Source: Oscillospiraceae bacterium
GTDB lineage: Bacteria > Bacillota > Clostridia > Oscillospirales > CAG-272
Assembly: GCA_015063385.1 (NCBI GenBank)
Contig: SVUG01000002.1
Location: 1 to 64,000 of the forward strand
Direction: 5' to 3'
DNA: 64,000 nt
Positions within the stretch are counted from its first letter, which is position 1, and each line of letters opens with the position of its first letter. Below, one piece after another: positions 14,995 to 56,825 of this stretch. Made by a program: the position numbers and the translations under genes. Under the pieces are notes generated by a model, which saw only the letters and a list, made by a program, of their open reading frames with translations, searched no databases and had not been told where the DNA came from.

Positions 14995-15114
14995 GTCACG
15001 CTTGCAAGGCAAGCATATATATCACTCTCGCAGAGCGAGAATACCACGCTTGCAAGGCAAGCATATCACTCCGACAGAGTCGGAATATCTCTCTCACGAA
15101 GTGAGCATATCACT
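14995..15114. repeat. Array of short hairpins separated by ATATCAC-like linkers
   Basis: TCAC-GCTTGCaagGCAAGC-atatATATCAC-TCTCGCagaGCGAGA-ATACCAC-GCTTGCaagGCAAGC-ATATCAC-TCCGACagaGTCGGA-ATATCTC-TCTCACgaaGTGAG... Confidence 0.85.
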
Positions 15115-15496
15115 ATTCTTCGTGTGCAGCGCGAAGAAGAACATCCAGCCTCTCTCCGTCGCCAATCCATTCGAGCATTCCGATAACCGCCTCAAAGCCC
15201 GTGGCAGCGCGGTAATCTGCGGCGCTGGCGTGACGCGGCTTGTTGAGATGCCCCGAATTTGCAGCCCTCTTATAGACCTCACGCTCGTCCTCAAGCAGCA
15301 TCGGCTCGATTTTGCGCATCATATTCGCCTGCGCCTCGGCGGTGACAAATTTCAGCGCCGCCTCGTTGAGCTCACCGGATTTACATATTCCGCTATCAAC
15401 GAGCATTCGTCTGACGAACAGCGCGTGGCGCGCATCACCGAGATATGCAAGAGCCGCCACAGTCGGCAGGCTCGTTCCGAGAAGTCTATCGTGCAT
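15113..15496 (-). CDS. mrnC: Mini-ribonuclease 3
   Basis: VAALAYLGDARHALFVRRML and YRAATGFEAVIGMLEWIGDGERL. Confidence 0.85.
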   Translation of the reverse strand: MHDRLLGTSLPTVAALAYLGDARHALFVRRMLVDSGICKSGELNEAALKFVTAEAQANMMRKIEPMLLEDEREVYKRAANSGHLNKPRHASAADYRAATGFEAVIGMLEWIGDGERLDVLLRAAHEE

Positions 15497-44215: not shown

Positions 44216-44698
44216 ATATCACTTCGGCAAAGCCAAAATATCACGCGCGACAGCGCATATCACTTCACCCTTTGGGTGAAATATCACTCTCGCAAGGCGA
44301 GAATATCACTTCGGTAAAGCCAAAATATCACGCGCGACAGCGCATATCACTTCACCCTTTGGGTGAAATATCACTCTCGCAAGGCGAGAATATCACTTCG
44401 GCAAAGCCAAAATATCACGCGCGACAGCGCACACCACCTCACCCTTTGGGTGAAATATCACTCTCGCAAGGCGAGAATATCACTTCGGTAAAGCCAAAAT
44501 ATCACGCGCGACAGCGCATATCACTTCACCCTTTGGGTGAAATATCACTCTCGCAAGGCGAGAATATCACTTCGGTAAAACCAAAATATCACGCGCGACA
44601 GCGCATATCACTTCACCCTTTGGGTGAAATATCACTCTCGCAAGGCGAGAATATCACCTCGGTAAAGCCAAAATCAAAATATCACGCGCGACAGCGCA
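44216..44698. repeat. ATATCAC hairpin array, 87-bp super-period, 5 full periods plus a partial one
   Basis: Order A(TTCGGYAAAGCCAAA)-B(GCGCGACAGCGC)-C(TTCACCCTTTGGGTGAA)-D(TCTCGCAAGGCGAGA), each preceded by ATATCAC; A units start at 44216, 44303, 44390, 44477, 44564, 44651. Confidence 0.95.
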
Positions 44699-53722: not shown

Positions 53723-54982
53723 ATGTATTACGGATACAAAATCAGTGACGAAACTGCCGCTCTTGCACGCAGAGCAGAGGCAGATTGTAAAGAAATATTT
53801 GCAAAAATTGACGAAAACGCACTTATTTGCTCGGCAAAGGTGCTCACGGCTTTCCAGGAATGCAACGTATCCACAGCCGACTTTATTGAGGTGACGGGCT
53901 ACGGATTTACCGACTCCGGCAGAGATAAGCTGGAACAGGTTTACGCCCACGTATTCGGTGCGGAGGACGCCCTCGTCAGACCGCAGCTTATGTCGGGAAC
54001 GCACGCGCTGTGGGTGACTCTCGGAGGACTGCTCAAGCCCTCTGACACCCTCGTTTACATTACGGGTACTCCCTACGACACGCTCCAGACGGTTATCGGC
54101 ATCACGGGCGGCAGCCGCAACTCGCTTATGTCCTACGGGGTAAAGTACGAGGAGATTGACCTTCTTTCCGGAAAATTTGATATTGAGGCGATAAAGGAAA
54201 GATTCTCAAAATCCTTCGTCAAGGTTGCTGCAATTCAGCGCAGCCGCGGCTACGCGCAGAGAAAGAGCCTGACTATCGACGAGATTGCCGAGGCTATAGA
54301 GGCAATCAAGGAGGTTTCTCCCGACACGGTGGTTATGGTTGACAACTGCTACGGCGAGTTCACCGAGGACCGCGAGCCTAGCGAGGTTGGTGCTGACGTG
54401 TTCGTCGGCTCGATGATGAAGAATCTCGGTGCGGGCTTTGCCGTCAGCGGCGCTTACTGCGTAGGTAAAAAGGCGGTTATCGAGGACATTGCCGAGAGGC
54501 TCACCGCACCCTGCATCGGCAAGGAGCTTGGCGCGAACTTCAACCAGCTTGCCTCCTTCTTCAAGGGCTTCTTTATGGCGCCCTCGTGCGTGGCATCTAC
54601 GCTTAAATCAATGGTATTTGCCGCGAGAATGCTGGAGCTTGCAGGCTTTGAGGAGGTCAGCCCCCGCTACGACGAGAAGCGCACCGACATCGTACAGACC
54701 GTGAATCTGCACTCGGCAGACAGACTTATTAAGTTCTGCGTCGGTATTCAAAAGGGCTCGCCCGTCGAGGCGTATTGCACCCCCGAGCCCGGAGATATGC
54801 CAGGCTACGAGCACCCCGAAATTATGGCGGCAGGCACTTTTATCACGGGTGCGACCAACGAGCTCTCCTGCGACGGCCCGATTCTTCCGCCCTATACCGC
54901 GTATATGCAAGGCGGCCTCACCTACGAGTACGGCAAGCTCGGCGTTATGAAGGCAATCGACATGATGCTTGACCGTTCTTAA
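53723..54982 (+). CDS. Methionine gamma-lyase family protein (aluminum-resistance-like)
   Basis: VTGYGFTDSGRDKLEQVYAHVFGAEDALVRPQLMSGTHAL; VMVDNCYGEFTEDREPSEVGADVFVGSMMKNLGAG. Confidence 0.92.
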   Translation: MYYGYKISDETAALARRAEADCKEIFAKIDENALICSAKVLTAFQECNVSTADFIEVTGYGFTDSGRDKLEQVYAHVFGAEDALVRPQLMSGTHALWVTLGGLLKPSDTLVYITGTPYDTLQTVIGITGGSRNSLMSYGVKYEEIDLLSGKFDIEAIKERFSKSFVKVAAIQRSRGYAQRKSLTIDEIAEAIEAIKEVSPDTVVMVDNCYGEFTEDREPSEVGADVFVGSMMKNLGAGFAVSGAYCVGKKAVIEDIAERLTAPCIGKELGANFNQLASFFKGFFMAPSCVASTLKSMVFAARMLELAGFEEVSPRYDEKRTDIVQTVNLHSADRLIKFCVGIQKGSPVEAYCTPEPGDMPGYEHPEIMAAGTFITGATNELSCDGPILPPYTAYMQGGLTYEYGKLGVMKAIDMMLDRS

Positions 54983-55235
54983 CCCCCCTCTCACCCACTA
55001 ACGCGGGAGTTCTCCCCCACGGAGAGCCTTTGGCGGCCTCACCTACGAGTACGGCAAGCTCGGTGTTATGAAGGCAATCGACATGATGCTTGACCGTTCT
55101 TAACCCCCCTCTCACCCACTAACGTGGGAGCTCTCCCCCACGGAGAGCCTTTGGCGGCCTCACCTACGAGTACGGCAAGCTCGGCGTTATGAGAGCAATC
55201 GACATGATGCTTGATAGAGGGTAAATTAGAGATTC
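54911..55235. repeat. 121-bp tandem repeat (about 2.7 copies) covering the 3' end of the upstream gene plus spacer
   Basis: ggcggcctcacctacgagtacggcaagctcgg at 54911, 55032 and 55153; a few substitutions between copies. Confidence 0.95.
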
Positions 55236-55263
55236 GAAATCAAGATACGCAAATACTCCTTAT

Positions 55264-55295
55264 GCGCTCCGACTCGCTCGGAGCGCCTTTTAATT
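55264..55295 (+). terminator. Rho-independent terminator
   Basis: gcgctccgactcgctcggagcgccttttaattt. Confidence 0.75.
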
Positions 55296-55369: not shown

Positions 55370-55398
55370 TTGACACCGACTTCGACAAGTGCTATAAT
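55370..55398 (+). promoter_or_regulatory. Sigma-A promoter
   Basis: TTGACA-17 nt-TATAAT, directly abutting the 192-bp repeat. Confidence 0.85.
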
Positions 55399-55782
55399 AA
55401 TGGTTATAGAATGTAGAAAAGGCTCAGAAGCCTTTTCACGGCTGAAAATCAGCCGTAGCAAAAAGCAAAGAATAGCTTTTTGCCGCTATATCATTGCAAC
55501 AGAAATCGACAAGTTTCTTTTTTGAAGCTTGTTAGCAAATCAAAGATTTGCCGTCGAAATTCACGAATTTCGACCTTCGATTGTCGTTATAATGGTTATA
55601 GAATGTAGAAAAGGCTCGGAAGCCTTTTCACGGCTGAAAATCAGCCGTAGCAAAAAGCAAAGAATAGCTTTTTGCCACTATATCATTGCAACAGAAATCG
55701 ACAAGTTTCTTTTTTGAAACTTGTTGGCAAATCAAAGATTTGCCGTCGAAATTCACGAATTTCGACTTTCGATTGTCGTTAT
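55399..55782. repeat. Two tandem copies of a 192-bp hairpin-chain element in the operon leader
   Basis: aatggttatagaatgtagaaaaggctc... at 55399 and 55591; each copy carries about six short palindromes. Confidence 0.93.
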
Positions 55783-55823
55783 TATTACATAGTTCGAAAA
55801 AACAAGAAAGGGAGGTAAAACGT

Positions 55824-56108
55824 ATGAATAACCAAAAATTCAGGCGGCTGCTTGCATTTATATGCATTTTGCTCATGATCGTTTATGCCTCTGCATTGTT
55901 GTTGCCTCATTCACACGAAAATGGAGATGAGCATTGTGTGATCTGTGCACTTATCAAAGTGACAGGCGGCATTTCGGCGGCGACCGGACTCTATTTCCTT
56001 TTCTCCTTCAGAGAAGCGAGCCCTTATCGTTGCTTCGACCCCTTCCACGATGCGCTAATACTGCACGACAGTGCGCCTGTTTGGCTAAAAGTGAAGCTTT
56101 CGGATTAA
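55824..56108 (+). CDS. Small membrane protein with HSHENGDEHCVIC motif
   Basis: MNNQKFRRLLAFICILLMIVYASALLLPHSHENGDEHCVICALIKV...; SD gggaggt. Confidence 0.75.
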   Translation: MNNQKFRRLLAFICILLMIVYASALLLPHSHENGDEHCVICALIKVTGGISAATGLYFLFSFREASPYRCFDPFHDALILHDSAPVWLKVKLSD

Positions 56109-56156: not shown

Positions 56157-56825
56157 ATGATAGAAATTAAAAATCTCGGTAAGCAATTTCAAAACGAAAC
56201 CGAAATTGAGTATCGGGATATGATCTTTGAAAACGGAAAGTCCTATATGCTGCTTGGTGCTTCAGGCTGCGGAAAGTCGACTTTGCTTAATATGATTGCA
56301 GGAATTATCTCTCCCACCAGTGGCGAGATTTTCATCGACGGTGTGAATATGAGTGCCTCACATCAAAAAGAAAAGGATCGCTTCAGAATCGAGAAAATCG
56401 GATATATCTTCCAGGATTTCAAGCTGATAAACGATATGACGGTTGCCGACAATATCGGAATTTTGCGCCTTGAGGGTGTAGACGTATCGGAAATGGATAG
56501 CATTCTCTCAAATCTCGGCATTCTCGAAAAAAAGAACGCTAAAATCAAGCACCTCTCGGGCGGTCAGAAGCAGAGAGTTGCTATCGCGCGTGCGCTAGTC
56601 AAGAATCCCGACATAATTCTTGCCGACGAGCCGACAGGCAACCTTAATTTCACCATCGGCGAGCTGGTTATCGGCGAGCTGACGAGAATTTCAAAGGGTA
56701 AAACTCTTATTGCCGTGACTCACGATGACAGACTCGCGAAATACTTCGACGTAGTTGTAGATATGAACGAGGTGACCGGCGGAATGCGTGACGTGATAAA
56801 CGAAAAGGAGGGTGAGTTATGCTAA
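56157..56825 (+). CDS. ABC transporter ATP-binding protein (LolD/MacB-like)
   Basis: [52 protein letters not shown]. Confidence 0.92.
   Translation: MIEIKNLGKQFQNETEIEYRDMIFENGKSYMLLGASGCGKSTLLNMIAGIISPTSGEIFIDGVNMSASHQKEKDRFRIEKIGYIFQDFKLINDMTVADNIGILRLEGVDVSEMDSILSNLGILEKKNAKIKHLSGGQKQRVAIARALVKNPDIILADEPTGNLNFTIGELVIGELTRISKGKTLIAVTHDDRLAKYFDVVVDMNEVTGGMRDVINEKEGELC

Follow-up and report, generated by a model that had tools for sequence, protein, structure and literature searches.

A predicted structured, tandemly duplicated 5' leader in an Oscillospiraceae genome reads as two copies of a MITE-like element inserted at the -10 box of a host promoter

The two 192-nt units that separate a consensus promoter from a metal-like gene module in an Oscillospiraceae bacterium are very probably copies of a small, non-autonomous, MITE-like element, whose arrival would have retained the host promoter and whose effect as a leader would be incidental. 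This reading follows from the dispersed copies of the unit, their sharp ends and AT flanks, an empty orthologous site and the reading frames restored when the element is removed. The units lie in a window of 64,000 nt (positions 1 to 64,000 of contig SVUG01000002.1) and their features are collected in Table 1. They are direct head-to-tail repeats with 5 differences (97% identity), and the array lies 43 nt 5' of the first downstream ATG. The promoter upstream of unit 1 displays a 12/12 match to the sigma70-type consensus, with a 17-nt spacer and an extended TG. A sequence-only reading of this DNA had described a duplicated 192-bp chain of hairpins at a consensus promoter, and both the two copies and the promoter bear this out. 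The same reading placed the beginning of unit 1 exactly after the -10 box; the unit does adjoin the box, but it starts with the last AT of the box itself. With the promoter in this position, transcription should begin within unit 1, so that a structured 5' UTR of ~400 nt is expected, and the element would probably form the first ~400 nt of the downstream module's transcript in this genome. The ~400-nt structured 5' UTR proposed earlier is therefore compatible with the promoter position, but not as a leader designed for the metal-like module, since the unit is a dispersed mobile repeat; a leader of this length on the module is plausible yet accidental.

Table 1. Positions of the array, its folded parts and the neighbouring features within the window
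Feature	Position	Strand	Remarks
-35 box TTGACA, host promoter	55370-55375	+	Spacing conserved at other insertions too
-10 box TATAAT	55393-55398	+	Final AT serves as the left-hand insertion AT for unit 1
Element copy 1, type A, 192 nt including left AT	55397-55588	+	
Closing helix P1, 5' strand, copy 1	55398-55409	+	Pairs with 55486-55496; overlaps left terminal inverted repeat
Hairpin 1	Copy 1 55416-55437; copy 2 55608-55629	+	
Hairpin 2	Copy 1 55438-55456; copy 2 55630-55648	+	
Hairpin 3	Copy 1 55458-55483; copy 2 55650-55675	+	
Closing helix P2, 5' strand, copy 1	55498-55508	+	Pairs with 55578-55588, right end
Hairpin 4	Copy 1 55509-55532; copy 2 55701-55724	+	
Hairpin 5	Copy 1 55535-55551; copy 2 55727-55743	+	
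Hairpin 6	Copy 1 55553-55574; copy 2 55745-55766	+	
Element copy 2	55589-55780	+	1 of 192 bases different from the copy on contig C12
Right-hand AT, target duplication or element end	55781-55782	+	AT here in all copies with an intact right end
Putative ribosome-binding site GGAGG of downstream gene	55811-55815	+	Read from sequence
94-aa membrane protein with HSHENGDEHCVIC motif, first downstream gene	55824-56108	+	No match in Pfam/NCBIfam
ABC ATPase	56157-56825	+	Same module
MacB/FtsX-type permease with His-rich loop	56819-58015	+	Same module

Copies of the unit are dispersed in this genome and in its relatives. The draft genome (1.69 Mb, 88% complete) holds three near-complete copies, two in the window and one full copy on contig C12, together with partial or diverged copies on C15 and elsewhere on C22. 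Sequence matches to the unit occur in 11 of the 69 genomes of the genus, reaching 14 in G047 and up to 20 in G058, while the 23-nt end sequence is found in 13 of the 69, against 0 for the reversed pattern used as control, and an element of any type in 16 of the 69. The genomes compared are draft MAGs, and the copy numbers are minimum values because draft contigs break inside elements, as many do in G057, G058 and G015. When 84,980 species genomes were scanned for the central motif, the only hits were 'Clostridia bacterium' bins from the gut of goat, sheep and roe deer, and a single Tidjanibacter-labelled bin that is probably misbinned. We place the element in a Clostridia lineage from the ruminant colon. 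Two other genera of the family carry related ends with a similar hairpin chain (G282 and G206; G330), whereas G265 and G184 display end matches yet no such chain. Neither the end pattern nor the central motif was matched in viral contigs. The contexts of the copies are mixed, with elements inside genes, at the 3' sides of genes and before unrelated genes, in both orientations; ORF-based counts of orientation relative to neighbouring genes display a mild bias only and rest on rough gene calls, so that they carry no weight in our argument.

Copies with intact ends share a common start base and a common stop base, and lie between unrelated flanks with AT on each side. The terminal inverted repeats are imperfect and span 23 bp (ATAATGRTTATAGNANGTMGAAA), with 17 of 23 positions matching in type A by direct reading, and are stronger in types B and C than in type A. 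The preferred site is T-AT-A, the left AT being preceded by T in 24 of 38 insertions and the right AT followed by A in 26 of 38. A target duplication and an AT borne by the element give the same letters on both sides, and the relatives are too divergent at the exact site to separate the two. Removal of the element from three in-gene insertions (L040, L058 and L059), with one AT kept, restores the open frame. At L051 the element is located at a stop codon, and the product of the gene that follows reads as an undecaprenyl-diphosphatase; the orthologous junction there is short and holds no element in about 20 relatives. MITEs are sequences of 50-500 bp without coding capacity, with terminal inverted repeats, a target site duplication and dispersed copies with empty sites, and their ends are usually, though not universally, shared with an autonomous transposon acting in trans. 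The present element, about 60-246 nt of stems and loops only with no conserved ORF seen in its copies, is likewise short and non-coding, with terminal inverted repeats and dispersed copies with empty sites. A longer element with these ends was not seen among the genome hits, in which draft contigs often break at repeats.

Sigma70-like -10 boxes are over-represented among the insertion sites when these are read in the direction of the element. The host sequence was reconstructed as it would read before each of 38 insertions, and a -35/-10 score was computed with the -10 set to contain the insertion AT. At a score of 9.5 or more, a cut-off chosen after the data had been looked at, 11 of the 38 qualify in the direction of the element and 2 of the 38 in the reverse direction (Fisher p = 0.006); without the window the counts are 10/37 and 2/37 (p = 0.012). 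The same cut-off is reached by 3.3% of nearby AT sites, by 10% of nearby TATA sites and by 10 of the 18 T-AT-A insertions. In a rank test the score distribution as a whole does not exceed the background of TATA sites (p = 0.13), the excess being in the top tail. Apart from the window, evident examples are TTGACA-17-TATAAT at L037, TTGAAA-17-TATAAT at L009 and L072, TTGACA-18-TATAAT at L065, TTGATT-17-TATACT at L008 and TTGATT-16-TATAAT at L048, and a TG extension precedes the box in 9/38 left flanks vs 1/38 reversed. At four tandem or remnant loci (L043, L045, L046 and L047) the rebuilt -10 derives partly from a neighbouring element. Since the element starts with AATG, insertion at T-AT-A leaves TATAATG and the box is rebuilt on the left side, while the right end, read inward, rebuilds only TATAAC. 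The sequence-only reading had proposed a search for the unit genome-wide and in relatives, and had named an inert repeat placed at random in intergenic DNA as the outcome opposed to its view: the unit is indeed a repeat, but its placement is non-random, with an enrichment in -10 boxes in one orientation. The orientation bias is predicted equally well by orientation-specific targeting and by selection for intact promoters. At the present locus insertion would have taken place in the AT that closes the host TATAAT box; with TATAATG left in place the host promoter would still work and transcribe the element as a structured 5' leader.

The boundary of an inserted element reads T-AT-A again, or close to it, and so forms a target for the next copy, which accounts for the exact 192-nt periods and for tandems of mixed types. 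The second copy of the array would have been added at such a boundary. We infer this order of events, whereas the repeat nature of the units, their ends, the flanking AT, the empty site and the near-identical copy are observed directly. Plain slippage or tandem duplication of local sequence, as in the 121-bp repeat upstream (54911-55214), is an extremely unlikely source of the array: the adjacent repeat indicates that local duplication occurs, and copy 2 could stem from duplication of copy 1, which makes slippage possible for the doubling step only, but it leaves unexplained the dispersed copies with identical ends and the mixed-subtype tandem pairs. As the origin of the unit, slippage is refuted by the dispersed copies. 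In the MITE-like reading the tandems would be successive insertions, and several sister types take part in them. Type A measures 192 nt, type B 211 nt (L189, L180, L187) and type C 246 nt (L019, L017, L196), with an intermediate type at L197 and single-hairpin forms of ~60 nt at L190. The types have a common architecture of three hairpins, a central linker with ATCATTG or a variant, and three further hairpins, between the same ends; the first linker half is the pairing partner of the left end and, in types A and C, the second half that of the right end, so that two closed domains form. Type B is followed by type A at L056, and type D, a single-hairpin form, by type C at L196. In G058 three loci (L064, L065 and L072) each carry a pair of the same two subtypes; thus pairs may also move as one unit.

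The fold of the element is strongly conserved. Each unit displays six hairpins, in agreement with the roughly six short palindromes per unit noted at first, and their stems measure 9, 8, 9, 9, 7 and 9 bp for hairpins 1-6. Two closing helices gather the hairpins in threes to form two cloverleaf-like domains, and helix P1 carries a compensatory AU to GC change in three copies. One unit reaches a fold energy of -72.4 kcal/mol, compared with a shuffled mean of -37.3 (z = -9.1; 0/200 shuffles as good), and the whole two-unit leader gives z = -12.4 against shuffled sequence. Among 39 type A copies, standard pairs occupy 98.1% of the pair cells and 11 pairs display two-sided changes, vs 2.1 in shuffles (0/500 as high); when the partner is shifted by one column, pairing drops to 54% or less. 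Between types the stem sequences are mostly replaced with pairing retained. Hairpin 2 is built, depending on the type, from ACGGCTGA/TCAGCCGT, GAGTCG/CGACTC or AGCCGAT/ATCGGCT, and hairpin 3 from GCAAAAAGC/GCTTTTTGC or GGGCATCATTCATTT/AAATGAATGATGCTC. As the stems are swapped between types and pairing persists, it is the pairing and not the sequence that is conserved. Because the hairpin domains are kept in this manner, the folded form would matter for the life cycle of the element itself, as RNA or as single-stranded DNA. The strand test gave 16 GU vs 8 AC in wobble columns, and fold energies of -70.8 vs -71.6, equal or slightly better on the other strand. The folded molecule may be read equally as RNA or as DNA, with no preference for the RNA-like strand.

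A single-stranded route of mobilisation bears on both the fold and the promoter bias. The element could move as single-stranded DNA and join the single strand exposed in an open promoter complex, so that its orientation at -10 boxes would be set by this step. We consider this improbable, although it would agree with the orientation-specific placement in these boxes and with a conserved fold without preference for the RNA-like strand. Element-bearing genomes also have Y1 genes above cut-off somewhat more often (7/16 vs 8/53 of the others, p = 0.02, uncorrected). Against this, no Y1 gene was detected in G047 despite its 14 element matches, and selection for orientations that rebuild TATAAT accounts for the bias equally well. 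In all, IS200-type Y1 genes are present in 18 of the 69 genomes. Y1 (IS200) transposases were rejected as mobiliser, the IS200 ends being unlike those of the element. IS630-type transposases are the usual movers of TA-flanked MITEs; IS630-type DDE_3 transposases are absent from all 69 genomes of the genus, and DDE_Tnp_1 (IS4/IS5) from the 14 genomes tested. The DDE_3, DDE_Tnp_1 and Y1 families thus yielded no candidate for the mobilising enzyme. A broader proposal, to which we also give little credence, is a new class of folded element that is moved by an unrecognised enzyme and directed to open promoter complexes, where it would join the exposed non-template strand of the -10 in a single orientation, rebuild TATAAT from its own first bases and travel as the 5' end of host transcripts, so that transcription would both pick the target and keep the insertion harmless.

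Among described repeats the nearest single precedent is CREE, or NEMIS, of Neisseria, a non-autonomous repeat of ~70-157 bp with inverted repeats and stem-loop transcripts that lies 5' of genes (PMC2649163). A CREE whose first six bases supply a -10 can complete a promoter with a native -35, the Snyder promoter, or a CREE may lie downstream of a promoter, ahead of the genes that it serves, and be transcribed along with them (PMC2649163). The ends TATAG(C/T)GGATTAA and the TA insertion of the CREE type (PMC2649163) were not found here, the ends being ATAATGRTTATAG and the flanking dinucleotide AT. The likeness lies in the short, non-autonomous nature, the inverted repeats, the stem-loops and the promoter-linked insertion. 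In contrast, CREE starts with TATAG and has 5'TA termini, whereas the present element has AT at both ends in a genus from which IS630-type transposases are absent; in addition, the host -10 pre-exists in the rebuilt empty site, and the fold is a double three-hairpin structure with interchangeable stems. We know of no sequence similarity between the two. The BOX, RUP and SPRITE repeats of Streptococcus pneumoniae are small, AT-rich, structured, modular and of variable size, confined to one lineage and sometimes found in leaders (PMC3049150). The present element is similarly small, structured, lineage-confined, variable in size and modular. The movement of RUP, at TA sites, has been attributed to IS630-Spn1 (PMC2229807); the present element differs from it in its ends, in its target and in the lack of an IS630-type IS. 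For the CIR repeats of Caulobacter and Brucella an RNA model has been proposed with two arms and a linker as two independent halves (PMC2229807). Each CIR arm consists of one long stem-loop that carries a GANTC motif, whereas the present halves are closed three-hairpin domains combined with terminal inverted repeats. REP/REPIN and other IS200/IS605-derived elements are palindromic and may need single-stranded DNA folding. The element resembles them in its palindromes and in the Y1 genes of some genomes, but it is much longer, with multiple hairpins and inverted-repeat ends, and the local IS200 ends do not match it.

The literature on MITEs that target -10 boxes, or on such repeats in rumen Clostridia, yielded nothing closer than the Correia elements. 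The family is set apart from these by its ends, target dinucleotide, architecture and apparent mobiliser; it is apparently undescribed, and the nearest known kind is the bacterial MITE. Two peculiarities are measurable: the fold is kept though nearly all stem sequences change, and insertion into the -10 has the orientation in which the box is rebuilt. If this is confirmed, the element would exemplify in nature a mobile sequence fitted to entering promoters without damage to them, in genomes from which the usual candidate transposases are absent.

The metal-like module downstream also comprises a gene for a protein with a lipoprotein-like start. Orthologues of the 94-aa protein in three relatives have no element upstream. 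Those of G067 and G020 lie directly 3' of a gene that reads as a Fur-like regulator, and that of G050 directly 3' of a gene that reads as a small Cys-rich regulator. Small His/Cys membrane protein orthologues follow a Fur-family-like gene directly at L245 and L246, a neighbourhood that supports a metal-related role for the module. As the orthologues in the three relatives are without the element, the latter is, on this comparison of sequences, no part of the ancestral control of the module. A dedicated cis-regulatory leader for the module (riboswitch, attenuator or protein-binding RNA), doubled for tighter control, would be in keeping with the position at a consensus promoter, 43 nt before the first ATG, and with the strong covariation. 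It is nevertheless highly improbable, since the unit also precedes unrelated genes, lies within genes or on their 3' sides, and is missing from the first-gene orthologues. No terminator with a switchable stem was recognised, and Rfam scans were empty both for the stretch examined in the window (up to E = 1) and for four related loci (up to E = 0.1). A riboswitch in particular is opposed by the mixed contexts in both orientations, with no association with the 5' UTRs of a single pathway. The locus also cautions that structure and duplication in the leader of a gene can mark the footprint of a transposon and not a regulator of that gene.

Co-option of the mobile element is somewhat less remote, though still rather unlikely: the tandem would have been retained since its folded leader tunes the operon through mRNA stability, RNase III cleavage or translation. 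Precedents exist among the Correia elements, one of which separates the mtrCDE genes from their promoter (PMC2649163), and in a BOX element within a T-box leader (PMC3049150), and both position and promoter are preserved here. The copies are however very young at this locus (1-5 differences) and so had little time for selection, and no orthologous retention is known. Under the MITE-like reading, any effect on the metal-like module would be a side effect of the insertion.

Remnants and other repeats were also observed. Solo remnants of 24 nt (ATAATGATTATAGAATGTCGTTAT or close variants) lie at G047:C42:20608, G057:C78:36678, G057:C96:9277, G057:C98:50342 and G022:C11:43705 (L191), as if the folded interior had been deleted between the short GTCG repeats at both ends. 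In the window, positions 54911-55273 hold the 121-bp tandem repeat, with two copies of 98% identity and a diverged third; it duplicates the 3' end of a methionine gamma-lyase-like gene and the following DNA, and the third copy encodes a different C-terminus. At L050 (2900-3650, G045:C21) 192-nt elements are embedded among arrayed hairpin units of 22 nt (ATCATTACGCCGCCAGGCGTTT and its variants), both with the same AT boundaries, which hints at one insertion boundary for short arrays and long elements. The design that the unit was first said to have in common with the ATATCAC arrays of the window is reduced to an analogy, for which L050 provides one suggestive link. The larger of these arrays (44216-44674) consists of short hairpins joined by ATATCAC with an 87-bp period of four different hairpins, and is flanked by a ligase-like gene and by a putative T-box leader with a terminator; among its copies the spacer is constant and the stem varies. 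Positions 14997-15115 hold a further array of hairpins, shorter than the first and with variant ATATCAC spacers.
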